NCBI GenBank assembly: GCA_030737835.1
Contig: JAUJYN010000025.1
Coordinates: 2,294,001-2,358,000, forward strand
Direction of reading: 5' to 3'
Length of the DNA stretch: 64,000 nt
Origin: Acorus gramineus
Taxonomy: Eukaryota > Streptophyta > Magnoliopsida > Acorales > Acoraceae
Part shown: piece after piece, positions 3,103-38,887 of the stretch
Numbering within the stretch: position 1 is the first letter of the stretch
How the letters are laid out: the number at the start of each line of letters is the position of its first letter
Position numbers and translations under genes: made by a program
The notes under the pieces: generated by a model
What the model was told of the DNA's origin: nothing
Databases searched by the model: none
Seen by the model: the letters and a program-made list of their open reading frames with translations, nothing else

Positions 3103-3341
3103 GTATTTGTCTCAATTTCCCTTTGTCTAATCTTTTAGATCATGTTAAATTATGTGTTTTTATTGATATATGTTAGTAATTTTTATATGGCATGAGTAGA
3201 AGTAGTATGTGTGTTTTAGATTTTCTAAGGGTATTTGTACAAATTGATCATGGTGGGATTTGCATGCATGTGAGTATGATATGTGGTATTTTAAAGGAAG
3301 GACAATTCTCATATGCATTGATTTCTATTTTGACATAGGCA

Positions 3342-5533: not shown

Positions 5534-7029
5534 TGTAGCGACTCTGACTTTTAGGCCGTAATTAACCTGCTTTTATGGTATGATTAGTATTCCAAATTTC
5601 TAATGGTTTGGCATAGTTAGATTCCTCATTTTGTTGGCTTCCAACGTTTTTTACGGATCGTAAATCAGATGCGTATAGATCAAGTTGTCACGCCCCAGGG
5701 CGGCCGTCCCCGATACGTGGCAAATATATATAATATCAGCAGTCTATACAGGAGATCAATAAAATACTCTAAACAACATCGAAAATGACAACACAATCAA
5801 TAATGTAGCTGACATAATATATATATACATATAGCGGAAGCTTAAACGACTGAGTCTGTAATTCAAAGACATATTACAGACCCGAATACATAATCAACTG
5901 TCCTGTGAGAGCCAATATAAACAAAGACATCCAATACAAGTGTTGTGCCCAAGCATGGATAACAATACATACAAGCAAGAAGGGGATGTTGATGGCCTCT
6001 CACTCGCAGAACCCAAAACGTGACGCTGCTCTGCTACTGCTGTGATGCCTCGGGGAGCTCCTCCTTCAGATCCGACTCAGATACAACTGGAGGAAAAGAA
6101 TATGCGAGGGGTGAGCCACACGCTCAATGAATGGCACAATCTATGCAACACAACTCATATTAACCTTAAAATAATTAAAATCCCTAAACGAAAGTAACTG
6201 TACAAGACAGTGGGTCGTAACATCGCCGACCCACCCCACCCTCACCCTCACCCTTTAAGGGGTGACATGGGCCTTTTGGGACAGACTAGACTGCTCTCCA
6301 CCCTTGGTCCACCAGTAGCCTCTCCCACACTCCGTAGCCTCTACCTGGTATACTCCCACGATCAACACCCTCCGACGCATCGGAGGTACCTACAGATGGG
6401 AGCCCTCTGTCAGGACAGCTTTCCAACGCCGGGGAGTCCCTACTCGGATCCAACGAAGGGGAGAAAACAGCCTACCCACACGGATATGATTCTCTTGGAT
6501 CCGTCGACATCGCTCCCTAACATTTCTAATGTCATGAATTCTCAAGAATTCCTCCAGGGCGCATAACTAAGATGCGGGGAAACATATATTATAACAACAA
6601 GGTTATAATATTCTCTAAGGCATGCTTATAACAATATATTCTCATTTTGATTTAAATAAATTAAACTAAATGGGAAACATGCATAGATCTAGGCTTTTCA
6701 AGCATGGGACATGGTGTCTAGGCATGTATGGGCCTCTATACATAATACATGGATGTATATCCCTAGCATACAATGTCTAATATGGCATGGTTACATCATA
6801 TTAAAACATGCATTACATAGTTTTTCATTTAGCACAAGTTAATATACAATTATGGTGCCCCAGGGGAGGGCAATGCACGCCTACGTGCATCGAACGCCTC
6901 CCTACTGGGTTGGATTGACCCACTCACCGAAACCCGGGTCGTTGCGTGACCGTTCGCCAAGATCTGCAAGACATGGGCATTCAATATGGTGAGTAAACTA
7001 CACAATACACATGAAATTTACTAGAAATA

Positions 7030-7350
7030 CCCAATTACTCGGACAAGCATGCATACGGACTCGCACGCATGCGAGCACGCACGTACGCACGCGAGTCCGA
7101 GTGCCCCGACACCCCCCCCCCGAACCCTCGGGCAGCCACACGCATGGCCTCCCCGCACGCGCACGCACAAATGCGCACGCACGCATGCGCCCCAGCACCC
7201 CTGGCGCACTGCCCGCACGCCTGCCCGGGCTCCCAGACGCGCTGCCGCGCGCACGCGCACGCTCGCGCCCAGCCCGCGCGTACCCGCGCATTGCGCCCCC
7301 GCGCAGCACCCCGCGCGCCTGCGCGTACGCGTGCGCCCACCACCGCGCCC
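7030..7350. other. CpG-rich alternating purine-pyrimidine tract in C1
   Basis: Dense CGCGCG/CACGCA runs in an otherwise AT-balanced region. All six frames are partly open because of the composition; the translated Pro/Ala/Arg-rich strings are not conserved between copies, so no gene is called. Equivalent tracts lie at 8600-9030 (C2) and 20770-21000 (C3). Confidence 0.75.
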
Positions 7351-7488
7351 AAACCCCTTCCACCCTCTCCTCAGCTCTCCCACACCCCCCACCACCCATG
7401 CAAGGCATGCTTGACCACTTATAAACCCTAACAATCATCTAAACAAAGCTAAGGGAGGAGGAGGCCTTACCCAAGGAGAGGAAGAACA

Positions 7489-7503
7489 GGGGGGGGGGGG
7501 GGG
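7489..7503 (+). repeat. Poly-G run (15 G) in C1
   Basis: It lies in a segment that corresponds to the GGT-rich block of other C copies. C6 has 17 G at 45296-45312 in the matching place and orientation. Confidence 0.9.
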
Positions 7504-8599
7504 AACTCGGGTGCCCTTTGCGCACCAAACCACCTCTTCCGCCACCACCAACACCACCACCTCCTCAGCCACTCTCAAGCCCTAAAAATGGCTGAAAACA
7601 GGGGTGGGGGAAGCCATGAGAGGGAGATAGAGAAAAGGGAAAACAAAACAAACACCATACAAAGGTTGCACACACTCTTACCTTTCTTTCTCCCTTCTAG
7701 GGTTTTCTTCTTCTTCTTCTTCTACTACCTCTAATGGACAAAGGAAAGAAGAGGGAATGGGTGATGGAGTGTGTGAGAGGGAGATGGAGTGTTATATATG
7801 TGTCACTTTTTGGCCTGCTGGTAACCATTGGAGCATTTTGGCAGTTTTTGAGTTTTTTTCGTTTTTCGATCGGAACCGCAAAATTTTGGACTGTTAGCTA
7901 TCGTCCTGAGCTAGAGGACTCTGATTGAAAATCAAACTGCATATTATGTGTCCTGGTACCATTCTAAGCCACTCATGAAAATTTCATCGAATTCCGGTAA
8001 CGTTTCCAAAATTTCACAGTTCCGGGGCGTATCCGGGTATTTTAAGTGACTTGCTATATAAATGAAATCTAAAACTTGGTTGGCACTATTCATCATCCCT
8101 TCCAAAAGCTTTTTCTCTCTCCCCTCTCTCCTTTTCTTCCATTTGAGCCCCTTAGAGCCCTCAAACCCAAAAACCTAAAGCATAGAAAGTGTAGATCGGG
8201 TCCCGATCTACACCCCGGTGCTTTCAAATCCGGATTCTGGCCAACCTAGCCCTCCCATCCGCCCTCTCTTCTCCTCAGATCCGAGCCAAATCGGAGGTGG
8301 GAGTAGGTCTCGGTGGTAGAGACCGTTGGGGGAGCGTTTCGGTGCGCGGAGAGCAACCGGACACCTCTTCCTCCCCCTTGGTAAGCTCTTTTTCCTCTTC
8401 TTTTTGGCTTAGATGTATGTTAGGAAGGGGGTTTTGTGTTTGGGTGGTGGTCGGCGGCTGTGGGAGGCTGTCGGAGGTGGTTGGGGGTGGTCGGAGGCCG
8501 TCGGAGGCCGGTGGATGGGTGGTGGAGGTGCTCGGGCATGGAGGTTGCTGTCTCGGGCAGGGCAGCAGCACAGGCAGCAGCACAGGCAGCACAGGCGCA

Positions 8600-9030
8600 G
8601 CAGGCAGAGCCGCTGGCAGGGCGCGCGCGTGCGTGCGCGCGGGCGTGCGCTCGGGGGGAGCTGGTGGCCAGCAGGGTGCGGGCGCTGGGCATGCTGTGCG
8701 CGGGTGTGCTGGTCGAGTGGGCATGCGTGCAGGGCGTCGCGCGGGGTGCGCGCGGAGCGAGGCGAGTGCAGCGGAGGTGCGCACAGGGCGAGGCGTGCGG
8801 GGTGCGCGCGGGCTGCTGCGCTGGGGCGCAGTGGGCGCGCGGTGCACCCGGGAGGCTGGGCGGCAGGTCCAGGCGTGCGGGCAGGGGCCGGCGGTGCGCC
8901 TGGGTGCGCGGGCTGAGGCGCGGCGGTGCATCCGGGGTCGGGAGGCCGTGCGGGTGGTTGCCGGGGGTGCGGGAGTGAGTCGGGGTGCTCGGGCTAGCGT
9001 GCGTGCGGGTCGTATGCACGTTTGCCCGAG
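8600..9030. other. CpG-rich tract in C2
   Basis: Rich in GCGCGCGTGCGTGCGCG-like runs and CAG-type repeats (8560-8600). Long open frames on both strands here are compositional. They differ from those in C1 and C3, so I do not call a gene. Confidence 0.75.
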
Positions 9031-10028
9031 TGTTGGGTGTTTGATTTTGGGATTTTGGGTATTTATTTGTGTATTTTGAGTATTTTGTGGATTTTTACTC
9101 ACCAGTTGATACCCTGTCTTGCAGATCTCGACGGACGGTCGCGCGTCCGACTTCCGGTGAGTGGGACAACCCAACCCAGTTTGGGAGGCGCTACATGCAC
9201 TTGGGCGTGTACCGTCCTCCCCTGGGGCACATAGTTAATATTAACTGTTTTATTGTAATCCATGCAAGCATGATCTATGTGTAGAATGCATGCCACCCTA
9301 GACTTGTATGTTAGGGACTTGCACCCTTAGGATATGTGCATGAGCCGTGCATCCTGTCACCCGTTATCATGCTAGGAAAGCCCCGACCTATGCATGCGTC
9401 CTATTAGTTTGATTTATTTAAATGCAAACTTGTAATATTGTTAGCATGCTTTGGGGAATATAAGGGGGCCTTGCGAGGTTAACATTGAGACCCAGGTTAG
9501 GGTACTCCGTGTTCCTTGTTTGGTTGGCGGGATGTCCTACATCGGGACCTCAGGTTACCCTCCCAAGGTCTCTTTTCCTCATTATTATCTTATGTTTCCC
9601 CGCATCTTGGTTATGCGCGCTGGAGGAATTCTGAAAGAATTCAAGACATTAGAGTTGTAGAGATGTGCTGTCAGCGGATCCGAGTGGATCATATGCGATG
9701 GATAGGCTGTTCTGTTCCCTTCGTTGGATCCGTGTAGAGACTACCTCAGCGTTAGAAAGGTTGTCCCGTGCAGGGGCTCCCATCAGTAGGCGCCTCCTGA
9801 TTTGGTAGAAGGACTGTGCTGAATGTGGGAGTGGCCAAACGATCTACGGAGTGGGGAGAGACTATCGGTGGACCAAGGGTGACCAACAGCCTAGTCAGTC
9901 CCAAGAGCCTATGTCACCTATTGAGGGGTGAGGGTGAGGGTATGGTGGGCCGGCGATGCGGCGACCCACAGGATTGTGTATGGATGATTATCAGCCCATT
10001 AAGTCCCAATACCCTTTGTCACCTATTG

Positions 10029-10058
10029 AGGGGTGAGGGTGAGGGTGAGGGTGAGGTG
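10029..10058 (+). repeat. GGGTGA repeats, possible G-quadruplex
   Basis: Four GGG runs spaced by TGA, then GAGG. The same GGGTGAGGGTGAGG block is kept in C3 (21789-21808), C5 (42509-42522) and C7 (57207-57224), and as its complement in the minus-strand copies (6239-6256, 62860-62886). Confidence 0.7.
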
Positions 10059-11086
10059 GTTCGGCGATGTAGCGAACCACCGGACTTGTGATTGATTATG
10101 CCACTTTGAGGCTTTTGCTATAAATTGTGGTTAATATAAACTGTATGCACGGGTTGTGCTATTCACTGAGCGTGTGGCTCACCCCTCGCATAAAATCTTT
10201 TTCAGTGATCACCGAGGAGGACTTGAAGGAGGAGCTTCCCGAGCGACTACACCAGTAGCGGAGTAGCGCCACGTCCCTCGAGTTTTGAGGCCATCAGCAT
10301 CCTTCTCTTCGTTGTATGTATATATTTCTGTGCTTGGGCACCTAGTTTGGATTATGTATGGATTGTATTTGTGTGTATATGGACATGTTGGCTCTCACAG
10401 GACATATGATTATGTATCGAGTCTGTAGTATGTTTTGATTACAGACTCAGTCTTTTTAGCTTCCGCATTTGGTGTATATATTATGTCAGCCCTGCTTTTA
10501 TCTGTGTTGTCATTTTAGCTGTTGGTTATGGTATATTGTTGATCTCCTGTTTACTGATATCATATATACACTTGCCGCGTCCCGGGGACGGCCGCCCTGG
10601 GGCGTGACATGGAGATGGGGAAGAAGGGGGACGCCCACTAATAGGGCCACACACACACACACACACACTCACACACTTAATGAAAAAAAAAAAAGTTGGT
10701 GAGGCTTGACTTTGAGTCAACCCAACCACACAAAAAAAACAAAAGGGCTTGACCAAGTCAATGGTCAAATTTGACTTGGTCCAAGTCTCCTTGACTTGGT
10801 CAAGTCTCCCTTTGACATTCCAAATCGGTCAAAACCTGGATACGATTCGGAACTGCCAAATTTCTAAAACGTTACCGGAATTCGATGAAATTTTCGTGAG
10901 TGGCTCAAAATGGCACCAGGACTCATAATGTGCAGTTAGATTTTCAATCGGAGTTCTCGAGCTCATGAAGATAGCTAAAGTCCAAAATTTTAGCGGTTCC
11001 GATCGAAAAAAAGAAAAATTGGAAAACTGCCAAAAATGTCCCAAATGTGACCAAAAGGCTAAAAGTGACACATATATAACACAAGT

Positions 11087-12908
11087 AATGGACCAAACAG
11101 TTACAGGGTGTCAGATAGTGTATGATGGATCTTATAGCTGCGGTCGGGCACATGGGCGATGGATCGGGGAGAGCCGTCAGACGCCTAGGTGATGGATGCC
11201 ATAGGAGCCGTCGATCTGGAAAATCGTATTTTTGAAAATAGGTTCCGTTTTTTGAAGGAACAGGTGCATTAATCGGGATTAATGCAAATTATTGGTGTCG
11301 TAATTATTTCCTTACGTGTGTGAGAGGCTTATAAACCTCTTTTCCTCTCTCATTGCCTTGAAACCCTAGAAATTTCAAACCATAAAAGATCTTCTTCTTC
11401 TTGTTTTCGGCACCATTGTTGAGAGGCTCAGGAAGGGAGCTCGAGCAAGGGTTTAGGTGAGTTTTCTAAAGAGTTTTGAAGAGTTTTTGGTTTAAAATGA
11501 TTCCCTTTAGATGTTCTTTTAATATGATCTCGTTTTCAAGGTTTTCCAAACAAAGAGGATAGTTTTCTTCTTGTTTCTTAGGTGCTTTCGCGTGATTTCA
11601 AATTGCTATGTTTTAACAATGATATAATGATGATTTTATGATGTTTTTGTAAGCTTTGATGATAGTATTATGTCTCACATGAATATATTGGAAGTTTATG
11701 CTTTCTTTAGTTTTCTTATGGTTTTTCATATGATTTTAAAGGGTGTGGGATCTTATGATATAGCCATGATGTTAAGTTTTTTTTTAAAGGATGATTTATA
11801 AGTCTTTCATGTAAAAATAAATATGCTTATGTATATACCATGTTTAGGTTAATTCGTTTAAGGTAGAAATCATGTTTTTATGATCTTTAGGCCTTATTTT
11901 GAACCTTGTACACATAGATCCAAACCTATGCATATATTTATGATTTTTGGGGGTTTAAACATAGATCCATATTGGTTATTTATAACTATGATAGACCTAG
12001 GGTTTTCAAAGTTGTTTTCAAAGAGTTTTGATTGGTTTTAATCGGATTTTTGGTACGAATGATTTGATTTCGACAATCAATTCTTTTCTGATTAAAACGT
12101 TTTAAAAAACGAGTCGTGTCTTGTTTTCAATGGTAGAATGTTTTTAAGTATTTCTACAAGAAAATTTAGGGTTTCATGCTTCCGCCTCGGGACGACTCCA
12201 ATGAGAGCCGTCGGGTATGTTTCGGACAGCCCCTATGGGAGCCGTCGGATTTGTTAATAATAGCCACAATGGGAGCCGTAAGGTTGGCCAGTGACGGTCC
12301 TTGTGGGAGCCGCCATTTTTGGCATATACGGGTACCATCAGGTTCCGTGCTGTATGTATGTATTTTGATCGGTTCACATCGTTTCAGGTCTGACTAGAGT
12401 GCTTTAGGCCTCCTGGAGTTGTTTATGTGTCATTGGACCTAAGGTGAGTGGGTTTAGACTCTACGTAGATTTCAAAACTATTTATATTTATATCATGATC
12501 GCATCATGCCTATTTTACGAATACAACTGTTATCTTGATTATGGAATACATGAGCATGACACCATGATTTTAAAGTATTATTTTACGTATAATCTATATT
12601 GGAGTCTATGCTATTCATGCATGCAAATTACAGTTTGATAAATTGATCTTGCATGCATATCATCTGTCTGCGTGACACCTGTCTGCGTGACATCGTCTGC
12701 GTGACGACCGGTCTGCGTGACCAAGCTCTAGATGGAGCATCTTTTAGCTGCGTGCCATACGGGCATGCGTGTCCGTTGCATCATACGCATCATGTAGTTA
12801 GTATGAGATTGTGGCTATTCCTCTAAAGAGATGCATTATGTTTTATCGTTACACTTGTGACAATTATATGTATATGTTTATAATCTGTTAGTTTGGATTT
12901 TGGGACTA

Positions 12909-12948
<40 letters not shown>

Positions 12949-13353
12949 GGGATGCTATAGGTCCATTCATTGAGCGTGTGGTAGCTCACCCCTCTTTTCC
13001 CAACCTTTCAGGGTAGGTGTTGGTTATCATTGTTCGTGGAGGGGCGTTGGCAATCTAGTTCGCGTTTTATCTTCGTTGCATCGTAGGTGTTGAATAAGCC
13101 TTCTTCTTGGCATGTAGTGGACGTCCTTTGCCTTATTAGCAAAACTAGAGGAATTATTATCAATATTAAATAAAGAACTCGTGTGTATTCATTCAAACTT
13201 AAGAATGGATTATTGAGATCCCGTGGTTAGTTTATGTTTTAAACTTTTGAGTTTATGAGTTTATTTATATTATTCGATATATTGTGGATTGTGCTGCAGT
13301 AACGCACCGTATCGCATGCCTTAATTAAGAATAATGGGTACGGGGGCGCTATA
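11087..13353 (+). repeat. D1 LTR, main segment after C1
   Basis: Aligns with 59490-61898 of D2. No open frame is shared between the two. 12191-12212 is an inverted repeat with arms GACGACTC and GAGCCGTC (one mismatch), followed by three more AGCCGTC/AGCCG half-sites to 12320. 12665-12721 holds four spaced TCTGCGTGAC copies. The TGAGCGTGTGGTAGCTCACC block at about 12974 is shared with C units. Confidence 0.8.
12909..12948 (+). repeat. TTA microsatellite in D1
   Basis: About 13 TTA/ATT units. D2 carries a shorter tract at the same LTR position (about 61470-61495). Confidence 0.9.
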
Positions 13354-17605: not shown

Positions 17606-17624
17606 GATATGGAATAGTTGTGAA

Positions 17625-18092: not shown

Positions 18093-19503
18093 TGTCGGTG
18101 TCATTTTTTGGTGGGGTCGCTCCAGTTTGTTGGGGCCTCCGAAAATAGGTGGTTCTGTTTTGGCGTGTGTGGGGTTTTTTTTGGGGATTCGGATCCGAAT
18201 GCGCCCTGCGGGCCCAGCTGAGGTGCTCGATAGCTTCTCAGGAGGATTCTCGGAAAGGGGAAGGGGGTTTGGTTCCTTGCTGAGGTGCTCGATAGCTTCT
18301 CAGGAGGATTCACGGGGGTGTAGTGATCGCCACTTGCTTTCTCAAAAAGAAGGAAAAGTTAGGGTTGGATTTGATCGCCTTTGTGGGGGAGTTTGTGAAG
18401 TCCCCGCTCTGAGATACAGGCTTGCCGCACACAGAGGTGAAAAACAGGAATCCTTTTCTGCTTCGGGACTTGACAAAGGGATGTTTAGAAAGTCAGGGTG
18501 TAGGTGGGGGTTGGCTAGTGGGAATTAGCCGCCTAATAGGGAACGGCTAGTTTGGGTTAGCCGCCTGGTGTTTGGTTTTATGTGGGCAAAGCTTGAGTAG
18601 GAAATGAGTTAGGGTTTGGCAAGGGTTAAGCTAGGTTTAACCTGGGTTTTGGAGAGGGTTTTTGGAGAGTAGATTTTGCTTGGAAATGGGTCTTCTCTCT
18701 CACTTTCTCTCTAGGGTTTCAAGCAGGGGAAGAGGGAGCTTGTGAGTATGGTTGGGGAATGAAATGTATGTGTTGATTTGAATTGGGGGATTATTGGATC
18801 TCTTAGACATGTTTTGGACCCCTCTATTTATAGTAAAAAAGAGGCTGGGGAATATCCAATGGACAATAGATTAAAATGGATAATATGGTGTTTTGATTTG
18901 ACCCCCATTAGATCTTTGTTATTAAGATAAGGTCAAGGAGGGGGGTGGCTAGGTGAAACTAGCCGCCTAGTGAGAGGCGGCTACTTATAGATTAAAATGG
19001 ATAATAGGGTGTTTTGATTTGACCCCCATTAGATCTTTGTTATTAAGATAAGGTCAAGGAGGGGGGTGGCTTGGTGAAACTAGCCGCCTAGTGAGGGGCG
19101 GTTACTTTGATGTAGCCGCCTCTATGATGACCTGCCAAATGTCCCATCTCTGACAAGCAGTGGCTTGGGTTGGCTACTAGGGTTGAACCGGCCAAGATGG
19201 GGCGGCTAAATGGAACAAACCGCTGCAATTATCAGCATTAAATGCTGCTTTATGTCCCATCCAAGGGAAACGGTTTGGGGTCGGTCGGGGAGGCAGCTAG
19301 TTGAAACTAACTACCCAATATGGGGTGGCTACTCTCAAGTAGTCGCCCCTGTCTTGGTCTAGAACTTTCTAAGTGTCTGACTAGGGTTTCCGGTTTTTGT
19401 TTCTTTATAGAAGTTTTCTTTGTGGTATTCCAAAGGTGGTCATTTCTAAATATTACTTGAAGTATTTTTGTCTCTTTGGACTGTCAAAATTGGGGCATCT
19501 ACA
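18093..19503 (-). repeat. A1 5' LTR (1,411 bp)
   Basis: Pairs with 323-1594. It is longer because of two tandem duplications: a direct repeat of about 121 bp (starting 18868 and 18989), which includes an inverted-repeat module, and one in 18215-18315 (GAGGTGCTCGATAGCTTCTC twice). The first base of the element in its own sense is at 19503. CAACC follows at 19504-19508. Confidence 0.88.
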
Positions 19504-19508
19504 CAACC

Positions 19509-19805
19509 GAAAACCAAATTTGTAAACCGAAGAGAAGGGGATTGAGAGCGATTTAATAGAAACAAAACTTCTTCAAAACAAAGAATTGCAAATCGACGGC
19601 TCCAGGAGGATCCGTCGTAGGAAAACCAAGAGAATTTGAGATAATGATTTACTAAGGAGAAGAAATGTGAATAAATCTTCAAAGCGAGAATTTGAAAATC
19701 GACGGCTCCTGTCGGATCCGTTGGGTGAAAATAGGAAGAAGTTGAGAAAAATGATTCACTTAAACAGAGGGACTAAAAAAACTAACTTTCAAACGGGTAA
19801 CTACA
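19509..19805 (-). mobile_element. Element E 3' LTR, middle segment
   Basis: Lies between A1 and C3 and continues both 1-322 and 22328-23762. Two inverted-repeat modules, at about 19592-19615 and 19698-19720, have arms CGACGGCTCC and GGATCCGTCG-like. No coding sequence. CTACA at 19801-19805 is the C3 target copy. Confidence 0.7.
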
Positions 19806-22322: not shown

Positions 22323-22327
22323 CTACA

Positions 22328-23762
22328 AATCGACGGCTCCTGTAGGATCCGTCGATAAAAAAGAGAAAGAAGTTGAAAAAATAATTCACTTAAACAGAGA
22401 AAGTATTCAGATTTGAACACAAGATGCAACTGAACCAAAACAAATTGTAAAATTGCTTAACAGAAAATTACAGAAACAAATAAAGCAGGAAACCAAATAG
22501 AACTTGATTAAAACTTCCCCAAATCGATAGCACTGGTAATAGCCATCGATATGCAAGTAAAGAAAAGTAAGTGTAGCTTCAAAATAACACAATGAAATGC
22601 AAATGCAGATAACAAAATCGACGGATCCTGGTGGAGCCGTCGCTCAAGAAACTTCAGAATTTAAATAAAAGAGAGTAAGAAGCAGTTATTTAGAGTAAGT
22701 AGGCAGTAAATGTAAAAGAAATGAGCAGAAATGGAAATAAACAGTAATGAAACAAAACAAAAAAAAGAATAATTAAAGCAAAATGTTAGTAGTCCTTGGG
22801 TTCAAACCCAAATCTAATGGAGAGCCAAAGGGGAGGTTCCAAATATTCCCTAGACCAACTAAGGGCCTCAAGAAAGGTAGTCCATCAGGTGAATCTTGTT
22901 TCCAAATAGAGGGTTTTAGTTCAATAGAAGATCTTTCACATGCACACCAATTATTTAAAACCTAAGTTTATATATATAATCTTAAATTGGTTTACAAGTG
23001 AGTGATTACAAAGGTTTTTTCAATAGCGGGAACCAAAGTCCTTCACTTAAACTCTTAGTGAAGAAACAAAGAAAGAAAAGAGAACAAAGTGGTATAGACA
23101 AGTTATGGGAGTGAAAGGGTATTTGTTTCTATTAAAGTGCTCTCTTTCTCTCTGGTTTCCGGTGGTGGGAAGGCTGACTACGAACTCTAACAAGGTATGG
23201 GTTCCTACTTGCTTCTCTTGCTTGCTTTTTTTGTTCCTTTTTCCTTCACAAATGGCATCTATTTATAGAGTTCTCAAGCCCACATAGGGGGCATCATCAC
23301 CCATTTCCCGTTGATCAGGGGCTGGTAGGGGCGAAGGATAGCAGCTGTAGTCGAAAGGAAGAGCACCACTGTGAGTTTCGTCAACTATTGTGACCCAAAC
23401 ATGCCGACGGATCTGACTAGTGCCGTCGGGCGGATTAGGGCATCCCTTTTGCATGTGCCCAAACCGACGGCTCCTCAAGCATCCGTCTCGCATGTACCCG
23501 ACGGATCCTAGAGCATCCGCTAGATAGGTTGTCGACGGCTCCTTCACCATCCGTCTCCTGGTAAGGTTTTTTTTGCTTTGGCTGGTTCACCTTAGGGTTC
23601 CATCTTCGAGACTTCTTTTCATCTTTTGATCTCTTTGCCTGTTGTCTCTTTTATTTCCTTTAATGCCTCCCAATGGGCTTTTAGTCACATATCTGTAGAG
23701 AAAAATATTATTAGTGATATGTATTTCATTATCCAGATAGGTAAAAAAATGGGGTATCTACA
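22328..23762 (-). mobile_element. Element E 3' LTR, right segment
   Basis: In element sense the LTR starts TGTAGATACCCCATTTTT (complement ending at 23762) with a TATA-like box at 23260-23267. It holds many CGACGGCTCC/GGATCCGTCG inverted repeats, for example 22331-22354 and 22618-22641, and single half-sites at 23400-23550. The same LTR start and following sequence recur in plus orientation at 58394-59078. With 1-322 and 19509-19805 this LTR exceeds 2 kb. Confidence 0.8.
23260..23267 (-). promoter_or_regulatory. TATA-like box of the E LTR
   Basis: TATAAATA on the minus strand about 500 bp into the LTR. Downstream in element sense lies the transcribed R/U5 part. Confidence 0.5.
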
Positions 23763-23780: not shown

Positions 23781-24508
23781 GTGTTTCAAATGAAACGAGA
23801 ATCATTGTTCGAGGATAAGAAGAGAGACCTCATTTTTTACTCATCAAATGACACGATGTTATTCTCATGATCAATCAGCAAAACAGGCAATAATTTTTCA
23901 AATAATATTCTTTAAGTTGTCAATGAAATAGTCTTGGGGGAAAGACAAAACTAAAATATTTTGACAAACAATCCAACCCTCGATCGGGGTTCCTAGCCTT
24001 CGTGTGCTGTAGCCCGGCATCGAATTCTCTGTGCCTGCCGTGGATTGCGATTCGGCCAACAAGGGGATATAATAAATAAAAATATTGATAAATAAACAAG
24101 AAATGACCATTTTAGTAATAAGTTTTAAGAAAATTGAATGATAAATTTTATCTGATTGTTATGAATCATAGAAAAATGCAATGTGCCAAAATAACTTAGA
24201 TAGGATGAGTTTAGAAACATACCACTGTGACGATAATCCTCACTAGAGATTCACGTGATCAGATGAGTGCTGTAGCATACCTGGGTGGCTTGTCCAAAAG
24301 AATTTTCATGGAGCCAAATTTTCCAACCCGACGGCACCTGGCTCGACGGATCCTTTTGGATCCATCGATCTGGGGAGTTATCTGAATCCCACCTTTTGCG
24401 GGACGGTTTCATTTCAAATGCTTCTTCCTCAAAATCGTCAGACCTTAATATCAAAACCGCCCCCCTTTTTTTTGTCGAACCCTAGAGATCAAATTTCTCT
24501 TCAACAAA

Positions 24509-27500
24509 ATGGGGAAACAATCGACAAAATGGCTGCGGCTTTTCACGGGGAGAGCGGCAGATCCGTACTCGTCGGGCAGTGACGGGTCCCCTTCGGTTGA
24601 GGGGGTTCCAAGGGGGACTTGGGCAGGTCGACAAGGGTGTTGGTGATCAGATCGGTGGTCGCGAGCGGCGGCGGAGATGAAGCTACGGAGAAGGGGACGA
24701 CAAGCGCACACGAGGTGTTTGTCGAAATGCCCGAGAGAGCGTTTGGGGCTTCAAATGTCACGGTCGAAGGCGCGATGACTATGAGAGAGGTAGGGGGTTC
24801 GGCCGAGGTCCTTGGGGAGGCACTGGTGGTGGTTGGTGACGGTGTTCGCAGCGCGACGGAAGCGGTCCGTGTGGGGGTGTATATGGGTGATGATGCGGGG
24901 GTCGTGGCCGCGGCGGATTGAATCGTACCATTGGACGAGACGGAGGAGGTCGCGGTGGCAGTGATCATGGGTGCTCCGGTGGTGGGAGAAGGTGGCACGG
25001 AAGTGGGTGGCACGACGGCCGTGGAACATGAGGCGCAGGCAGCAGGGGTGGAGTCAGAGGTAGGGGGTGAGGGCCGTTTGGGTGACGTGGTGGTTGGAAC
25101 GGGTGCGAGGGTCGAGGTCCGGGGGATGGTGATGACGGGGGAGGATGAGGAGGAGTTCACGTGGACCGAGTCCGATGCAGGTTTTGAGGGGGGCGCGGAT
25201 GGTACCGATTCGGTGGAGGGGGGTGGTGCCGACCTCAACGAGTCTTTCGGTGCGGATGGCGGTTCCGATGAGGTTGGTGGGGATGAATTTGATGAGGATT
25301 CGAAGCTGGCGGTCGAGGAGGTAGCGGGGGCGCGGACCGTTGGGGCTCGAGAGGTTGCAGCGGGTTCAGCCGAGGAGGAGGACGATCGTCCACGCATTTT
25401 GGTAAGCTTTTGCTATTCCTCTGCTTTTATTAGTCCTGTAGTGACCAAATAATTTAGATTAGATATTTATTTACACCTATATATATTTATGTCTTTCTTA
25501 TACTCTTTTTATTGCAGCCCATGAGACTCCGGGCACTTTGGCATGGAGTGAGAAGTTGGTACGACGCTTTGGCGCAGCCCAAAAGAGATTTGGTCAATGG
25601 GGCCAGTTTTTGGGACTTCTTCCACATTCAGCCCTTCATCGTTGATCGTTCCTACATCGAGGCGCTGAGCGAGCGGTGGGACCCTAGCAGCTGTACTTTC
25701 ATTTTTCCTACAGCCGCTTTGATGCCATCTTTGGAGGACGTGTTTCGGATCACAGGTCTTCCAGTGGTGGGTCGCCCAGTCACTGGGGGAAGACGTATTC
25801 CGGATCACTGGTCTTCCAGTCGTGGGTTGCCCAGTCACTGGGGTGACTCTTCCGGACTATCATAGGTTTCTTCAGGTGCTTTATCAGCAGATGGGACTTC
25901 GTAGAGCAAGGCCGCAGCCTCAACCGTATCCCCCTTCGTCGCCTCTCCTTTAAGTATGGGCTTGGGAGGTTCACCGAGCAGCGTCCAAAGAAGTCGGATG
26001 AGGAATATCTACGTCGGACTCACATGATTGACTAGAGGACAGCTGCAGCTGACCCGAGGAGGGCCTAGAGAGAGTTGAGGGCCTTCTATCTGTACTTTTT
26101 TTGAGCGATTGCTTTTCTCCAACGCTTTTGACCGGGTGGCATCACATTTGCTGCTCTTCATGGAACGCCTGGGGCAGATGGGGACCTATGCTTGGGGAGC
26201 AACGATGTTGGCTCACCTCTTTGCTGAGCTTTCTAAGAAACAGAGGAGGACCAAGAGCAAGAATCATGGTGGATTTACGGCATTCCTTCAGGTATATCTC
26301 TCCCTTTAAGCTGAGCTTCCCCTTTTCAGTTCCTTCTTTTAACATTTAGTCGTACCATTCAGCTTTTCGGATATGAGCACATTGTTGTGGCTCGTCCCAT
26401 GTCGATAGAGCTGGAGGAGCCTTTTCTGCATGCCTTGCTATGGGTCACTTTTGATTCGTATTATGATCACACCTTGGCATCCTTGCGTGAGCGCTTCCGC
26501 ACTTTGACAGAGGAGGAGGTAGAATTTTGATTTAGTAATTCTTTCTTTCTCAATTCCATTTTGTTTTGGTGACACCAAGCCTATTCTTGCAGATTTCATG
26601 GAGGCTCTATACAAAGGCTCCTCCGGACGCGATGTCCCGTGACACTTGGCTGATGTTCTTTGACGAGGTGGTGTATCATCCTATCAGCTGGGTGGTCCGA
26701 CAGTTGGGATATCTTCAGTGGGTCCCTACTCCTCTTCTGACCATGCCTCGCTTGACAGTTGCTAGGATCCCGAGGCGCTTTGATCCGAACAAGAAGTTTG
26801 CCGCTCATCTACGGCTATGGGACGATCTAGATTACCCAGTTAGAGCCCAGGATGGCCTTACTGATAGTCATGCTTATATGGAGTGGTTCCACTGGGTGTA
26901 TGCTCAGGCCCTTTGAGCTCTTGATGAGCGTGTCCCAGATGCAGTGGTAAGAAAAGATCTTCTCATAATTTCCTATTTGCAGTCAATGTCATGCTTTGCT
27001 TAACTCTTCTTCCTTTCGGATAGATTGGCCGTTCCCATGCGGCGAGGAGGCTGAGAGTCCTGAGTGAGGACTTCACCGCTCAAATGACTCTGGTGGACGA
27101 GCTCCGGAACGAGAGGGATGGGCTTCTCTGACAGGTTGGGATCCTCTAGGGCCGCCATAGAGATTTGGAATTGGCTCAAGCTGCAGGCGCCTCATCTTCT
27201 TCGGCTCCTCCTATCGTCTTTATCTGTGGCCAAGTTGACGATTGAGTTGAGCACGACCGGCAATGAGTTGATGGCCATTCAGATGCAGTTGGAGGAGGCC
27301 AGGATGCAAGTGGAGAGGGAGAGGCAGGAGAGGATCAGCTTGCAGGGTGTGCTCTGGTAGATCCGAGAGGAGGCTGAGGCACAGATAGAGCAGGAGAGAC
27401 GAGAGAGGGCCAGCCTGGAAAGTGAGTTGTCATAGGCCTGAGAGGAGATCTCTTCTTTACCCCGGGAGAATGAGGCCATGCAGTCCAGAGTGGTGGATTA

Positions 27501-27984
27501 TGCGGCGTCTTCTGATGGAGCTGGAGTCGGTTTTGAGAGAGAGATGATCCGCAGTCTCCAGGCTTCATTAGATGTGGAGAGGATGAGCATGCGGAGCATG
27601 GAGGAGGAGCACAACCGCTTTCGATAGAGGATGGAGGAGGAGCAGGCACATCTCCGTCGGAGGCTCGAGAGGAAGAGCAGGGAGGTGGGCGCTTATCAGA
27701 CGATGGAGCAGTTTGTGAAGGCGAAGGCGATGAGGGGTGAGACCTTTACGATGGACGAGCTCAAGATCTTTTCTCCCCCTGAGCGTTCGACTTCGACTTC
27801 CATGCGGAGTGGCACTTCTCATTCTTATTCCCACTCGATGGGACCTCCACGTCCTCCTCCCAAGTTCGAGGAGTCGGCCACCTCTCAACCTTCTCCAACC
27901 AAGCAGGATGATCAGGGAGATGAGTCCATTCTGAAGCAACCTCCCCCACCGCCTCCCCCGAGTCAAGATGATGATCCTCAGTAG
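24509..27984 (+). pseudogene. Antisense plant mobile domain (PMD) gene carried by element E
   Basis: A five-exon gene remnant on the strand opposite to E gag-pol, between the 3' LTR and integrase. Inferred exons: 24509-25401, 25518-26291, 26363-26518, 26593-26946 and 27024-27984, all with GT..AG introns of 71-116 bp. Exon 1 is acidic and low in complexity. Exons 2-4 give a PMD: RLRALWHGVRSWYDALAQ, FWDFFHIQPFIVDRSYIEAL, TYAWGATMLAHLFAELSKK, LFGYEHIVVARP, ISWRLYTKAPPDAM and RFDPNKKFAAHLRLWDD. Exon 5 is coiled-coil-like (Glu/Arg-rich) and ends in a Pro run, DDDPQ. PMD proteins (MAIN/MAIL family) act in gene silencing and genome stability; transposon-borne versions are known. It is broken by stops, a frameshift near 24646 and a 55-bp duplication in exon 2. 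Confidence 0.8.
25734..25843 (+). repeat. 55-bp tandem duplication in PMD exon 2
   Basis: 25734-25788 and 25789-25843 are near copies (GAGGACGTGTTTCGGATCAC and GAAGACGTATTCCGGATCAC at their starts). As 55 is not a multiple of 3 the frame shifts. The two copies encode the same PMD motif, DVFRITGLPVVG. Confidence 0.9.
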
Positions 27985-29380
27985 AAAGTCCTTTATCTCT
28001 TTCTTTGAATTTCTGAGCTTTTAAGACTTGTAATCAATATCCTCTTCTGACTTTTAATTTCTCTGGGTTTTGGGCACAGGTAACACCCTCTTTTCTTCTT
28101 CTGGATTTCTTTAGGGGCTTTCGTAAGAACACTCAGCCCATACTCTCGTCTTTTCTTCTGATTTTGTTGATCATGCAAAGACTCCTTTATTGTATGGTTT
28201 GTAGTAGTTTGGCTTTGGAATATTGGAATACTTTTTTTGGTTTTCTTCTGAATGAATGCTTGGGCCATGGTAGGGCTTATGTGCTTTGAAATGATGAAAT
28301 GTGTTTGGGATTTGTTTGGTGTGTGTATGAATGTAAGGATGGATGTATGGATATCTTGTTTGCATGGATGTCTTGGTCTTGCAGTGGTTTTATATTTGCA
28401 GGGTGAATTGAGAGAAGAGATTCAGGTAGTGGGGCCAAATAGGAGTGCTGCGGCTGCTCCAGATCGACGGCTCTGAGGAGAGCCGTCACTTGGTGAGGGA
28501 CGGCACCTGCAGGAGCTGTTGGTAATGAAGTGACGGTTCCTCCAAGATCTGCCCCGAAACCATTCCATTCTCCTTCTTTCTTTCTTATCCTTATCTTGTA
28601 GAATACTGAAAACACTAGACCCAATGATCAAATCTGTTCTATTTGGGCCCTTGCTTAGTGTTATTTCTATCTTCTTCCTATTTTGTCAAGGGCCCAAATT
28701 CTAACATAAAATTGGAAGGATTAGTTGTTTTAAAAGAGCAAACCTAATACGGGCCGGATGTTGAGGGAAGATGGCACATTCACATATTATTCTACCAACT
28801 TGGGAATTGCATTCGTTATGCTACATCAGGGTTTGCCTTGCTAGGTATAGCTTATAGAGAGGATTCCTAGATGTGAAAAACTTTAACCCTCTTGATTGTG
28901 TTACTCAAAGATACTGGAAAAACCACAAACATGTCAAGATAACAATGAAGACCAACGTTCAGAATTACAAAGCTTTAAATGAACTCATGTGAATGTGTCT
29001 GATATGTCAATTTATAGATGGTTCGCTGTGCGCTATGTTAGTTTAATAGATGGTTCGCCGTTAGACTGGAGACTTCACTTATCCTGTAATTCTGGTCTAA
29101 TCCCATATTGCCAAAGGGGGAAAGTGAATGAACGGTGGTGAGGGTAATGTTTTCTTTGAATCATTTTAAAATTGCCCCAGTCCTAGCACATATCCTAAGT
29201 CACTCGGTCCTTCTAGCGTTCTTCTTTACTACTTCTTCTTTCTCTTTTTTTTGGTGAAGGATATGGACCCGCACTGGATATCCATTTTTATTATCCTTAA
29301 AGCTATTCAGTCATATTATCATGCACAAATACTGGAATTCGTAGAAGCTAATAGTAAAATTTCTCAAAAATGCTAAAGAA
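27985..29380 (-). other. Element E 3' noncoding region next to the antisense gene
   Basis: No gene seen. It contains a perfect hairpin at 28466-28487 (arms GACGGCTCT and AGAGCCGTC, 4-nt spacer) and further half-sites to 28560, so E-type modules lie 3' of the PMD gene. 28900-29300 aligns loosely with A3 49600-50960 in inverse orientation. Confidence 0.6.
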
Positions 29381-32817: not shown

Positions 32818-33580
32818 CTAGGGTGAGGATTAGTTGGGAGTCATGTAGTCATGTGACTCTTATACCCATCAAGTGTACTCTGGGTATGTTACTCTTAATG
32901 CTTGAGATATCATAGTGTATCTCTACCTTGTAGTGGATGGACTTGTTGTATCTCATTATTCAGTAACACCATGCGTTATGGTTAACAGTTATTCCTCCCC
33001 GAGTGTCCCAAGAGCCTCCCTCCGAGAGTGAGGGCAAGGGGGACGACGTATGGTCACACCGTCGCGTATTATCATTTGGGTTTCTACCCATATTTTTCCT
33101 TGAAAGGAAATTGCCTTAGTATTGAATTGTTGTGATGATGTTTGGTTTTCAGCCACTCACTGAGCTTGTAGCTCACCCCTCGCGCACTGTTTCTTCTACA
33201 GGGGCTGTGTTGGGCATGGAGCTGGAGCTTCCCTATGGCGTGGTCGCGTGGTCCTGTCCGGCGGTTGGCGAGTACGAGGTTGTCAGCAGTCCTACTATCG
33301 TATGTATTGCTAAATCGTGCGTGTTGCATTGGTTGAATTTTATTTGGACTAGACTTGGCTCTCACAGGACAGTGATTGTGTATTCGAGTCTGTAATAATG
33401 TTTTGGTTTACAGACTTATTGGTATTTTTATGCTTCCGCATTTTCAGTTGAGCTATCATTTATCTTTGCCTTGCCACCTTGTATGTTGTTGTTGGAGTCT
33501 TTGTAACCTTAGGTATTGATAACTGATATTATATATATTGCCACGTCTCGGGAACGGCCGCCCTGGGGCGTGACACTTGG

Positions 33581-34499
33581 GCGTGCTCAGCTGCACGCAA
33601 CCTTTTCTCATCCAAAAGTTTGAGTTGTACAAGAAGCGCTTCCCTCCTATCCTAGGGTTGCAAATCCTTGTCCAACTCTATTCTTAAAAAAAGGGACAAG
33701 AACCTCATAGGGAACAACTGCTTCCATTCCAAATGTTAGAGAGTAAGGAGTCTGACCTATGGGGGTTCTGATGGAAGTACAATAAGCCCAAAGTGCATCG
33801 ACCAACTTATCATTCCAGTCAGTGGATTTTTGAGTTTCCACTGTCTTCTTGATGATCTTCAAGAGAGTATTGTTGGTTGCTTTAGCTTGACCATTTCCTT
33901 GTGGGTAATATGGGGTGGAGTGATGCAGCTTGATGTGGTGCTTGTCATAGAGGTCTTGAAATTTTTTGGAAATAAATTGCGGGCCATTGTCAGTGATAAT
34001 TACCTTTGGAGTACCAAATCGTGCGAGGATGTGCATGCAGACAAAGCGGACAAAGGTAGTGCTTTTGGTGGTTATGTATGACTCGGCTTCAACCCACTCG
34101 GTGATGTACTCCGTGGCAGTGAGAATGAAGGCTTTCTAACTTGTGTTCTCAACAGTGTCCCAGAAGGGGCCCACGATGTCAAGAGCCCACATGGAAAAGG
34201 GCCAAGGGGACGTCATGGAATGGAGTGAGGAGGCAGGCGCGTGGATTTTGTTGGCATGTGTCTGGCATTGGATGCAGCGCTTGACGAACTTGTTGCAATT
34301 GTCCCCCATGGTGGGCCAGTAATAACCCATTCTTAGTACTTTCTTGCCCAACATTTGTGAATTCACATCCTCCGCATACTCCGGAGTGTGCTTCTGTTAC
34401 AATAGTAAAAACCTCTTTGTCCTCCAAGCACCTCAACAATTCTCCATTGAAAGATGTATGAAACAAGACACCCCCTCGAAGACAGTACTTCGTAGCCAT
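33581..34499 (-). pseudogene. Element E integrase: zinc-binding and catalytic domains
   Basis: Minus strand. The N-terminal HHCC part has RMGYYWPTMGDNCNKFVKRC and IQCQTHANKIH. The core has SMWALDIVGPF (first Asp), IITDNGPQFISKKF (second Asp) and STPYYPQGNGQAKATNNTLL. In A3 the last piece reads VEATNK, so E has Lys where the catalytic Glu belongs. Frameshifts near 34366 and 33650 split the frame. Integrase would insert the cDNA; this copy lacks the D-D-E triad. C4 cuts the gene after the DEKRLRAAEHAQ region. Confidence 0.85.
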
Positions 34500-34535
34500 T
34501 CTCTTAACAGCTTTTCGATCATCACTGGCTGCATA

Positions 34536-35140
34536 TTATGGAAAAGAACCATATTCAAGGTAGTTCTTGATGTCAAAGAACCATGGATTCCCATCATCTG
34601 GCTCCTCTATTTCCATAGCTGAAATTTTTGCACCTTCAAAGGTCTCATCTTTCTTTTCTTGTTCCATGAGCAAGTCCTGACTTTTGTGATTCTGAAGCTC
34701 AGTCGCTGGGGCTTCCAACTTTTGGATGGTGACAGTTTCTTCTTTTCTGGATATTGGGAGAGTGAGTGATGAAGCTAGTGAGGCCAGGGCGTCAGCAAGA
34801 ATGTTGCCAGCTCTGGGGGTGAAGATGTGCACAACCTCTTGAAACTGATGTAGCAAGGCCATGGTCAATTCTTTGTAGGGCTTAAGCTTTGAGTCCCTTG
34901 TTTGGCATTTCTTCAAGGTCTGGCGAATCACGAGAAGCGAATCACCAACAATCTTTAAGTGTCGGACTCCGAGTTCCAATGCAGTCTTCAGACTTGCAAT
35001 CAATGCCTCATATTCTGCAATATTGTTAGTAGCATTGAAAACAAGCTGAAAAGCACGGGGAATGAGACAATAGGGCGATGCCAATTCCTCGCCCTTTTTG
35101 GTTGACCGCTCCATCAAAAGTAGAGTGTCCAAGTCCTCCT
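34536..35140 (-). pseudogene. Element E second RNase H (archaeal type)
   Basis: Encodes AFQLVFNATNNIAEYEALIA, KIVGDSLLVIRQTLKK and GNILADALASLASSLTLP, typical of the additional RNase H of Tat elements. The start of the domain (YFDGA..) is shifted by one extra T near 35105. It ends LEYGSFP. The RT and first RNase H that should precede it are missing: the sequence stops at about 35145, where A2 begins in opposite orientation. Confidence 0.85.
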
Positions 35141-35145
35141 TGTCT

Positions 35146-36278
35146 TAAATTTTGACCGTCCAAAGAAATGAAAATACTTCAAGTAATATTTAGAAATGAC
35201 CAATTTGGAAATCTAATAGAAAACATCTTTTGAAGAAACAAGAGGAACCTTGGCCACAACACTTAGAAAAATCAAAAGGCCAGAGATGGGCGGCTAGTTT
35301 CAACTAGCCGCCCCCAACCGCTTCTCTTGGATGGGACATAAAGCAACATTTAATGCTGATGATTGCGGCGGTTTGTTCCAATTGGTCGCCCCTTCTCTAA
35401 CGGGTCAACACAAGTAACTAGCTCAAGCCACCACTTGTCAGAGATTGGACGTTTGGCAGGTCATCATTGGGGTGGCATCTTGTAAGTAGCAGCCCCTCAC
35501 TGGGCGGCTAGTTACAACTAGCCGCCCCTCACCTAGACACTGTCAGAAGAACAAAGATCTAATGGAAGGTAAAATCAACAACCCTATTATCCAATTTGAT
35601 CTATAGTCTAGCGGATACTCCCTTGCCTCTCTTTTACTATAAATAGGGGGTCCCCAAGCACTTCTTCAAAAATCACTCATTCAATCAACCATAATCAATA
35701 ACCACATTCCATCATACACTAGTTGAATCAAACCAGCACATCCACTACTTTAAAACCCTTGAGAGAGAAAGAGAGAGAGAAACCCATTCCCTACATAAAT
35801 TCACTCTCCAAAACCCTCTCCAAAACCCAGGTTAAACTTAGCTTAACCTGTGCCCAAACCCTAATCCTTTTCCTACCCAGGTTATGTCCAAATTAAACCA
35901 GGACCTAGGCGGCTAATCACCACTAGCCGTCCCTTTTTAGGCTGCTAAACTCCATTAGCCGGCCCTCCCTCATCCCCTATCTTTTTAAACCTCCATTTGT
36001 CAAGGTCTCGGAAGCACAAAAGGATTCCCCATTTTCACCTCTATGTGCGGCAGGCCCGTATCTCAGAGTAAAGAATCCACAATCCTCCCCACGAAGGCGA
36101 TCAATAGCAACACCCAACTTTTCTTGTTTTTTGAGAACGCATGTGGCGATCACAACAAACCCCGTCTTTCTGAGAAGCTGTCGAGCAGCTCAGAAACGAC
36201 TCTCTGAGCGGTGATCTGATCAGTCGTGAGACGGACCAGGACCCAGTTAGCAGAACCCCCAAGTTTTACATACCGACA
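35146..36278 (+). repeat. A2 5' LTR, lacking its first bases
   Basis: Begins TAAATTTTGACCGTCC, so the expected TGTAGATACCC start is gone. It ends ATACCGACA at 36278. TATA-like box at 35638-35645. Perfect hairpins at 35288-35313 (arms GGGCGGCTAGTT, AACTAGCCGCCC) and 35502-35527 (same arms, spacer AC). No target duplication is visible because the 5' end is truncated. Confidence 0.85.
35638..35645 (+). promoter_or_regulatory. TATA-like box of the A2 LTR
   Basis: TATAAATA followed by GGGGG, as in A3. It precedes the probable transcript start by the usual few tens of bases; the start itself is not visible. Confidence 0.6.
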
Positions 36279-37616: not shown

Positions 37617-38887
37617 TGTAGATACCCTAATTTTGACCGTCCAAAGAAAAGAAATTTAATTCAAGTAATATTGGAAAAAATCACATTTGGACATCTAAAA
37701 GAAAACTCCCTTAAAACCCAAGACCGGAAACCCTAAGTCAAACACTTTGAAAAATCTAAAAGTCTGGACAGGGGCTGCTACTTGAGAGTAGCCGCCCCAT
37801 ACCGGACGGCTAAAATCAACTAGCCGCCCCCCTGACCGACCCCAAACTGCCTTCCTGGATGGGACAATTCGCAGCATGATTGCTGCGAATTGTCCCGTTT
37901 AGTTGCCCCGTCTCAGCCGGTTCAACCTTAGTAATCGACCCAAGCCACCGCTTGTCAGAGATGGGACGTTTGGTAGGTTATGATGGGGGCGGCTACTTGA
38001 GAGTAGCCACCCCTCACCTGGACATTGTCAGAGAACAAAGATCTAATGGGAGGTCAAATCAAGCACCTTATTATCCATTTTGATCTATTGTCCAGTGGAC
38101 ACTCCCCTACACCTCTTTTACTATAAATAGGGGGCATCCAATTCATATCCATAAATCAATTCATTCCCAAGCATAAGCAATAACCCATAAGAATTCATTC
38201 CCAATCATCCCTTCACAAACCAACCCATATCCCTTCCCCATTCAAAACCCTTGAGAGAGAAAGTGAGAGAGAAACTCATTTCCTACACCAACTCCACTCT
38301 CCAAATCTACTCTCCAAAAACCCAGGTTAAACCCAGCTTAACCTCTGCCAAACACCCAAATCAAACCCTACCCAGGTTCTGCCCAAATTGAACCAGACAC
38401 CAGGCGGCTACCCACAACTAGCCGCCCCCCACCAGGCGGCTAAATCCAACTAGCCGGCCCTTCCCCTAGCCCATCTAAGTCCCAATTCTCCTTTAGTCAG
38501 GTTCCCGAAGCAGAAGAGGATGCCTGTCTTCACCTCTGTGTATGGCATATCCGTGTCTCAGAGTGGAGCCTGCACAAACTCCCCCATGAAGGTGATCAAA
38601 TCCGCCCCAACTTTTTCTGCTTTTTGAGAAAAGCAAGTGGCGATCACAACCACCCCTGAATCCTCCTGAGGACCCGTCGGCCGCCTCAGCCAGGAACGAA
38701 AAACCAACCCACCACCCCTTCCGAGAGACGATCCGACCAAGCCTGCCAAGGCGCAGCTCTTCGGATCCAAGCCTCCGAAGAACCCCCACACACGCACAAC
38801 CCCGAAGGACCAGGAGGAAGAGAGGGAGGAAGGCTTTCCGGAGCACCCCCCAACCCCCCCCCCTTTTTCCAAAATCCGATACTGACA
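37617..38887 (+). repeat. A3 5' LTR (1,271 bp)
   Basis: Starts TGTAGATACCCTAATTTTG, ends GATACTGACA. Close in length to the A1 3' LTR. TATA box about 38123-38130. Inverted-repeat modules at 37772-37799, about 37806-37828, 37986-38013, 38402-38430 and 38433-38455. Confidence 0.92.

Follow-up and report, generated by a model that had tools for sequence, protein, structure and literature searches.

Fixed-gap inverted repeats in the LTRs and around the antisense PMD genes of Acorus gramineus retrotransposons

Nested retrotransposons and an antisense PMD gene

The window analysed here, a 64,000-nucleotide stretch of Acorus gramineus DNA (C63:2294001-2358000, contig JAUJYN010000025.1, in the 398.6 Mb assembly G000), consists of plant long terminal repeat (LTR) retrotransposons nested within each other. 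One of them, element E, carries a gene for a plant mobile domain (PMD, PF10536) antisense to its pol; E, two copies of a second element (A1 and A2) and two LTR copies of a third (F) hold short inverted repeats, here called dyads, whose two arms stand at a fixed distance. A1 (323-19503, gag-pol on the minus strand) is inserted in the 3' LTR of E with the target-site duplication (TSD) CAACC on both sides, and this LTR reads, from 23762 downward, as 23762-22323, a solo LTR (19806-22322), 19805-19509, A1 and 322-1.

24509..27981, plus: antisense PMD gene of E, PF10536 in two pieces; looks broken
33578..35147, minus: pol of E (RVT_3 34539-35144, rve 33650-34135), cut off by A2
22323..23762, minus (sense strand): main piece of the E 3' LTR, beginning TGTAGATACCCC at 23762; homologous to E2
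19806-22322: solo LTR interrupting the E 3' LTR, TSD CTACA
19509..19805, minus: second piece of the E 3' LTR, between solo LTR and A1 (TSDs CTACA and CAACC)
1..322, minus: probable third piece of the E 3' LTR, beyond A1, judged from the A1 insertion
318-322 and 19504-19508: TSD CAACC of A1
323..1594, minus: 3' LTR of A1
2560..3135, plus: antisense exon 1 region of A1; no PMD exon recognized in A1
18093..19503, minus: 5' LTR of A1, with A-type dyads
35148..36184, plus: first LTR of A2, with A-type dyads
37617..38794, plus: second LTR of A2, with A-type dyads
58394..59341, plus: E2, a second E-type LTR
59342..61898, plus: F LTR, with the primer site TGGTATCAGAGCC three bases after it
5534..13353, plus: solo F LTR inside A1, itself interrupted, TSD GAGTA

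The initial annotation had placed the PMD gene of E antisense to gag-pol, and this holds, since the RVT_3 and rve open reading frames (ORFs) of E lie on the minus strand and PF10536 was found on the plus strand. The domain falls in two ORF pieces, 25458-25862 (E-value 2.5e-9, 37.2 bits, above the Pfam cut-off of 34.9) and 26079-26306 (1.7e-8, 34.5 bits, slightly below it). The gene looks broken in the window, with stops in all three frames in four of the five stretches tested, the limits of which were guessed. A search of the protein database with an E exon returned no relative. In A1, 2614-3135 had no Pfam match. The DNA of A1 exon 1 has at least 40 matches in the genome (40 of 395 candidates scored), and at 10 of the 40 listed a PMD exon from our lists, compared by eye, stands within about 1.5 kb on the same strand. 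Two such exons of the A clade defined below exceed the Pfam cut-off (L086, 44.9 bits; L104, 37.4 bits), as does one of the H clade (L088, 40.9 bits); judged from these neighbouring sequences, the antisense gene of the A family is therefore a PMD gene in other copies, something that the window alone could not show.

The pol of A2 reads RVT_1 (46291-46962), RT_RNaseH (46917-47528), RVT_3 (47532-47927), then H2C2 and rve (48375-48962). In E, RVT_3 adjoins rve, and the reverse transcriptase and first RNase H lie outside the window. From its place, RVT_3 would in both be the additional RNase H that, between RNase H and integrase, characterizes Ogre and Retand within the Tat lineage (PMC6317226; papers are cited throughout for the portions consulted). 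By this domain order A and E are Tat-type Ty3/gypsy elements. Retand elements are marked by an antisense ORF with Transposase_28 (PF04195, TRP28); the pieces of E and A searched, part of each gene, gave no match to PF04195, and PMD stands there instead. PMD is known in Gypsy elements (PMC6317226, PMC9289625, PMC5418596) and is present in 57% of Ogre elements (PMC6317226). The 5' LTR of A1 is followed by AACCTGGTAATCACGG, which differs from the tRNA-iMet primer site and for which no matching tRNA was found; the 5' LTR of E lies outside the window. The primer site TGGTATCAGAGCC of F is one that we take to be the tRNA-iMet site, as in a chromovirus or Ty1/copia element. As non-chromoviruses do not use a tRNA-Met primer (PMC6317226), F should not be a Tat element. 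One F copy, riddled with insertions, has Retrotrans_gag and a zinc knuckle downstream, possibly not its own.

Dyads have fixed gaps and stand in LTRs and around the antisense gene

A-type dyads have the form GGCGGCTA-N8-TAGCCGCC and E-type dyads GACGGMTC-N6-GAKCCGTC; a third, H-type, is CGACRATC-N8-GATYGTCG. Across the genome the A-type pattern occurs 1606 times at gap 8 as against 15 times summed over gaps 9-20 (twelve gaps), the E-type pattern 352 times at gap 6 as against 9 times over gaps 7-20 (fourteen gaps), and the H-type 602 times, exactly, at gap 8. Control patterns read backwards gave no match for A, E or H, and one in each of two wide-gap searches. Gaps shorter than the family gap were searched within the window. 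There, all 28 A-type dyads have gap 8, although gaps 3-10 were allowed (controls, 60 dinucleotide shuffles within 200-base blocks: mean 0.6, maximum 2), and 24 of the 29 matches to the E-type scan have gap 6 (same controls: mean 2.15, maximum 6), the other five being one gap-5 site in F, two chance-like matches and two A sites. Within the window, the enrichment over shuffled sequence that the initial annotation had asked for is seen.

Scans that assume less of the motif point the same way. A six-base core common to the A and E families, at gaps 0-20, formed 63 inverted pairs (mean 15.0, maximum 27 in 200 shuffles); by that scan's definition, 19 pairs stand at gap 8, all in E or F (shuffle mean 0.62, maximum 4), and 22 at gap 10, 21 in A and one in F (0.69, 3). 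None of these gap-8 and gap-10 pairs lies in gag-pol, the PMD gene or the other nested LTR elements of the window. Free of any motif, a scan with 10-base arms and one mismatch found 41 GC-rich dyads against 5-15 in 20 shuffles, and inverted 8-mers are in excess in the A, E and F regions. A milder excess (at gap 4, for instance, 15 seen against 2.7) shows that inverted repeats are present elsewhere in the window too. The dyads are not the product of chance. They stand at the following places.

23406..23555: array of E-type dyads in the E LTR (23406, 23466, weak 23500, 23534), with TATAAATA at about 23267, downstream in the sense of the LTR
22332..22353: E-type dyad in the E LTR
22620..22641: E-type dyad in the E LTR
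19595..19722: two E-type dyads in the E LTR (19595, 19701)
242..263: E-type dyad in the third piece of the E LTR
24330..24366: E-type half-site and dyad upstream of the E antisense gene
28466..28553: three E-type dyads between the E antisense gene and pol, 33 bp spacing
717/749, 1155/1187 and 1382/1414: dyad pairs of the A1 3' LTR, members 32 bp apart
2153..2240: A-type dyads upstream of the A1 antisense gene (2153, weak 2185, 2217) on a 32 bp lattice
4000..4146: A-type dyads downstream of the A1 antisense gene (4000, 4032, 4123)
51110..51218: A-type dyads in the A2 region after pol (51110, 51195)
58605, weak 58639, 58673 and 58732: dyads of the E2 LTR
59521-59610 (last weak) and 60721-60834: E-type dyads of the F LTR
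11158-11212 and 12191-12314: E-type dyads of the solo F LTR

Dyads exist at every place that the initial annotation had named, with some coordinates and arms corrected. In the E LTR the sites at 22332, 22620 and 19595 each consist of a GACGGCTC arm and a GACGGATC arm; at 24345-24366, upstream of the antisense gene, the arms are GACGGATC/GATCCATC; and the dyad at 28466-28487 is, as had been said, perfect over 8+8 bases. For A, sites in the LTR and on both sides of the antisense exon were likewise found: those at 1155, 1414, 35289 and 35503 have perfectly matching arms, that at 2217 is altered once in each arm, and 4000-4055 resolves into two dyads.

Their placement is alike among the elements. 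The A LTRs hold three dyad pairs in common alignment columns, single members being lost or degraded in some copies, with the TATA box after the second pair and the third pair beyond it. In LTR positions, E has its array at about 208-357, TATA at 496 and five more dyads past it; F, counted from 59342, has an array at 180-269, TATA at about 388 and a second array past it. In A, E and F, one array thus ends about 100-140 bp before the TATA box, and in E2 the nearest TATA-like string lies 85 bp from the array; these TATA boxes were picked among strings found by pattern, of which F has several more further down. In A and E, further dyads stand near the antisense gene, both before it and between it and pol. 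The arrays are periodic, with a step of 32 bp that is seen nine times among the A dyads of the window, and with one of about 34 bp in E and 33-35 bp in E and F together. For the half-site and period sets of E and F, four matches that were chance-like or A sites (5652, 32603, 35908, 37805) were dropped and the weak lattice sites 23500, 58639 and 59589 added, which helps the count of 34s; without the added sites the distances are 33, 33, 33, 34, 34, 35 and three of 68, with 57, 59, 60 and 106 besides.

The spacers are free. Among 27 E/F dyads compared, no two have the same spacer, and the 50 genomic E sites listed have 32 different ones. The arms of E/F dyads are complementary at 168 of 224 position pairs, against 169.2 after shuffling of the right halves, and 12 of the 50 listed genomic E sites are mixed at the C/A position where 14.8 would be expected. 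Arms are more conserved than their surroundings in the A LTRs (0.84 against 0.73 for the remainder; 98 of 5000 random placements did equally well) and between E and E2 (56/64 in arms against 431/561 outside); here and in F the arm counts include the weak sites 23500 and 59589.

Site type agrees with PMD clade at the readable loci

Searches of the genome gave at least 163 matches to PF10536 (117 of 1380 candidates scored) and at least 150 to the E PMD exon (150 of 768 scored). The PMD exons form three clades, E, A and H, with identities of 80-96% within A, 92-99% within H and 57-64% between clades; two quick FastTree trees recovered the clades, with low support inside them. LTR stretches were retrieved for 14 loci, then five more, then L110. 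Among 36 loci with a PMD exon (L060-L089, L104-L108 and L110), LTR or promoter sites could be read at 12. The count leaves aside L061 and L062 (wedged LTR), L064, L065, L066, L089, L106, L107 and L108 (own LTR scarcely or not covered, or with inserts in its place) and, with L071 as the exception, the 15 loci of L068-L083, covered only to -1500.

At all 12 readable loci the site type is that of the clade, and of the four dyad types searched each locus has, within its own element, only its clade's: A at 5/5 (L085, L086, L104, L105, L110), H at 6/6 (L063, L067, L071, L084, L087, L088) and E at 1/1. The five A-clade loci also have dyads before the antisense gene; at L085 no TATA box was found by pattern. 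The H array is a 28 bp tandem repeat with 6-12 dyads, the last of which stands 155-183 bp from the LTR TATA box at 6/6 loci. On C1, three of the four matches to H-clade PMD exons (13637705, 21583416, 27433523) lie between H arrays 19-20 kb apart, and the fourth (32297743) has just the far array, among the matches listed; these four were taken from the best 30 matches of the E PMD exon. A second E copy (L111, on C74), 73% alike, has E-type LTR sites with up to three changes per dyad. Before its antisense gene stands a pair of dyads at a distance of 34 bp, each altered at two positions of one arm; where its PMD exon would be expected there is an insertion, and the exon was not found there. At L110, E-type sites do occur outside the A element, in an older-looking E-like LTR (175-base match, 67%).

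L061 and L062, the closest relatives of the E PMD exon (82% and 79%; 73-74% in the clade alignment), lie near A-type dyads and were considered as a counterexample, which we rejected because an A LTR and another LTR are wedged beside the gene. Both have the order A LTR, another LTR, E-like PMD gene, and by this order they are probably one rearranged copy, duplicated.

A further type, J (GACGGATT-N6-AATCCGTC, with AT spacers), was seen at 8 of the first 30 PF10536 loci listed (L031, L032, L036, L037, L038, L052, L053, L057), about 2.2 kb past the point where the PMD match begins. At five of the eight the dyads form arrays, and one unit, in L031 and L032, is altered on both arms (GACGGGTT/AACCCGTC).

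Four IMG/VR loci that matched the E PMD exon were dropped, as the contigs are phage-like and the match is overlain by long ORFs of the other strand. In the same database two dyad patterns matched 19 and 2 stretches.

Candidate readers of the dyads

A fixed gap, a free spacer and, in E and F, independent halves make the pattern of half-sites read by a dimer, not of a stem, and the dyads are probably dimer sites for some protein, as far as sequence can tell. At each dyad a DNA-binding protein, sequence-specific and dimeric, would dock on two inverted half-sites a set distance apart. Because arrays stand upstream of the LTR TATA box and, in A and E, around the antisense gene, the protein would govern transcription in both directions, sense from the LTR and antisense, or else the chromatin of these noncoding regions; as to direction, our guess is anti-silencing or activation in preference to repression. 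The most likely reader would be the PMD protein that the element itself encodes in antisense; half-site and spacing would then have changed in step with PMD in each family, as VANC proteins and VANDAL motifs did. It is the best single candidate because a PMD gene is present in all three readable Tat-type families with arrays, because PMD is tied to host silencing (PMC5418596, PMC7156037) and because VANC provides a precedent of element proteins with family-specific noncoding arrays (PMC5735166). That PMD is the reader is nevertheless a guess to which we give somewhat less than an even chance, and we hold the explanation as a whole, dimer sites read by the element's own PMD product, as the best available but tentative. 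The more elaborate form, a VANC-like family-private system in which a dimeric antisense PMD protein keeps each Tat family active and F rides on the protein of E, seems to us rather unlikely.

Several results weigh against PMD as reader. Arrays of E-type dyads occur in both LTR copies of F (59342-61898 and 5534-13353), an iMet-primed element, so these dyads are not confined to elements with PMD; whatever reads them in E would meet them in F too, and a host factor explains this just as easily. The agreement of clade and site type amounts to three families, E through one element, rather than a dozen independent events, and as it follows descent it is weak evidence for what reads the sites. At the H loci, no H-type dyads with up to three changes were found between LTR and gene at the five checked, two of them only to -1500, and copying accounts in part for the regular spacing of the H arrays, which are tandem repeats. 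The A arms are slightly more complementary than shuffled ones (192 against a mean of 188.8, a value reached in 190 of 2000 shuffles), so that hairpins are less clearly excluded there; conservation of the arms is weak in F (72/96 against 1476/2050 outside); and the E exon had no relative in the PDB at E-values up to 1. The initial annotation's observation is confirmed and its interpretation partly supported. Covariation of arm type with PMD extends to 12 of 12 loci and a third clade, within the limits of shared descent; typing by family holds for H and for other copies of A and E, but the E type is shared with F; and the placement of sites at LTR, before and after the antisense gene stands for A and E, H-type dyads being seen only in the LTR in the parts covered.

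The presence of E-type dyads both in Tat-type E and in F, with its different primer site, makes a host factor a close second. Host transcription factors would read the dyads, the elements having gathered sites of host regulators in their LTR promoters, and upstream of an LTR TATA box is the usual place of an enhancer. The A half-site TAGCCGCC also contains AGCCGCC, which we take to be the GCC-box bound by AP2/ERF factors, but ERF sites are usually single and require no fixed inverted spacing. Related elements A, E and H, moreover, share one host yet differ in arms and spacing, and the same site type recurs near the antisense gene in A and E, so that we consider host factors a real possibility that is nonetheless doubtful. 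It is less probable still, and unlikely on our reckoning, that there is no reader and the dyads are palindromic LTR minisatellites, by-products of tandem duplication and descent. Such an origin would suit the H arrays, tandem with similar spacers and varying number, the modest excess of arm conservation in the A LTRs (98/5000) and the small one in F, as well as the tandem arrays of Retand elements already in print (PMC11963269); it does not account for spacers that differ between sites in A and E/F, for the rarity of other gap lengths genome-wide, or for one type at separate places (LTR, before and after the antisense gene), which goes beyond spread by LTR copying. Hairpins, whether stems in element RNA serving packaging, export or 3' end formation, or DNA cruciforms, would explain the perfect 8-10 bp arms in several A copies and the arm variant of the J arrays changed on both sides. 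The E half-sites vary independently, which speaks against them: E/F arms show no pairing preference, a mismatch at the C/A position occurs in 12 of the 50 genomic E sites listed, about the number that independent halves would give, most listed H sites pair CGACAATC with CGACGATC, a mismatch, and loop length is fixed while loop sequence is free. We regard hairpins as very improbable.

F is a candidate hitchhiker on another element's regulator. The spacer CCCAGA of the F dyad at 60756 recurs among the 50 genomic E sites listed, and F-like LTRs may therefore hold many of the genomic E sites.

Relation to known systems

The closest likeness in working, though not in membership, is to the VANC/VANDAL anti-silencing system of Arabidopsis, marked by an element protein that binds its motif and lifts DNA methylation, in which an element's own gene goes with short noncoding motifs, often tandem, that differ between related families (PMC5735166, PMC10398659); family-specific motifs in noncoding parts are found here too, and the VANC6 motif occurs also in the unrelated AT9TSD1 (PMC5735166), as E sites do in F. 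VANDALs, however, are MULE DNA transposons encoding VANC, whereas A and E, with their pol domains and PMD, belong to the LTR retrotransposons. In the portions consulted, VANDAL motifs are sites of 8-9 bases and are not described as fixed-gap dyads (PMC5735166, PMC10398659), and motif binding was demonstrated for VANC, whereas the present sites are known from sequence alone. Retand elements with antisense TRP28 (Vicient 2025, PMC11963269) resemble A and E in being Tat-type, with a long region between pol and 3' LTR and an antisense gene, and a DNA-binding regulator has been proposed for them; tandem arrays occur in about half, but these are internal, adjoining pol or the 3' LTR, the gene is TRP28 and not PMD, and the consulted part of that paper describes no dyads or binding sites.

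PF10536 and roles in silencing are shared with the Gypsy PMD-A clades and the host proteins MAIN and MAIL1, for which a promoter 'DOWN' motif is linked to targets and, for MULEs, anti-silencing has been speculated (PMC5418596, PMC7156037, PMC6317226). MAIN and MAIL1 differ in being host proteins; the reader of the DOWN motif is unknown, and family-specific dyads are not described in the portions consulted of these papers. Grande gene23 and other antisense extra ORFs likewise lie antisense between pol and 3' LTR, with their own promoter, though the text consulted for gene23 contains neither 'plant mobile domain' nor 'PMD' nor 'palindrom' (PMC7264820). Antisense ORFs between pol and 3' LTR, tandem arrays and suspected DNA-binding regulation are thus already in print for Retand (PMC11963269); what this analysis adds is the cis sites, with their fixed spacing, positions and typing by family, and no description of these dyads was found in the open-access literature, judged by titles and the starts of abstracts. 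Family-private fixed-gap sites in promoters make the role of antisense and PMD genes in Tat elements directly testable. Were PMD to read the dyads, class I elements would own a sequence-specific self-regulation like that of VANDALs, and the host silencing proteins MAIN and MAIL might descend from, or have fed, a DNA-reading protein of such elements.

Other features of the A elements

A2 has at 35148-41586 a tandem LTR-gag-LTR-gag arrangement, with 36283-37611 similar to 38891-40182, such as recombination between elements would leave. The antisense region of A1 contains an internal duplication (2256-2583 and 3345-3684, 89%). A elements were met twice in or beside E-type LTRs, A1 within E and L110 beside an E-like LTR stretch.

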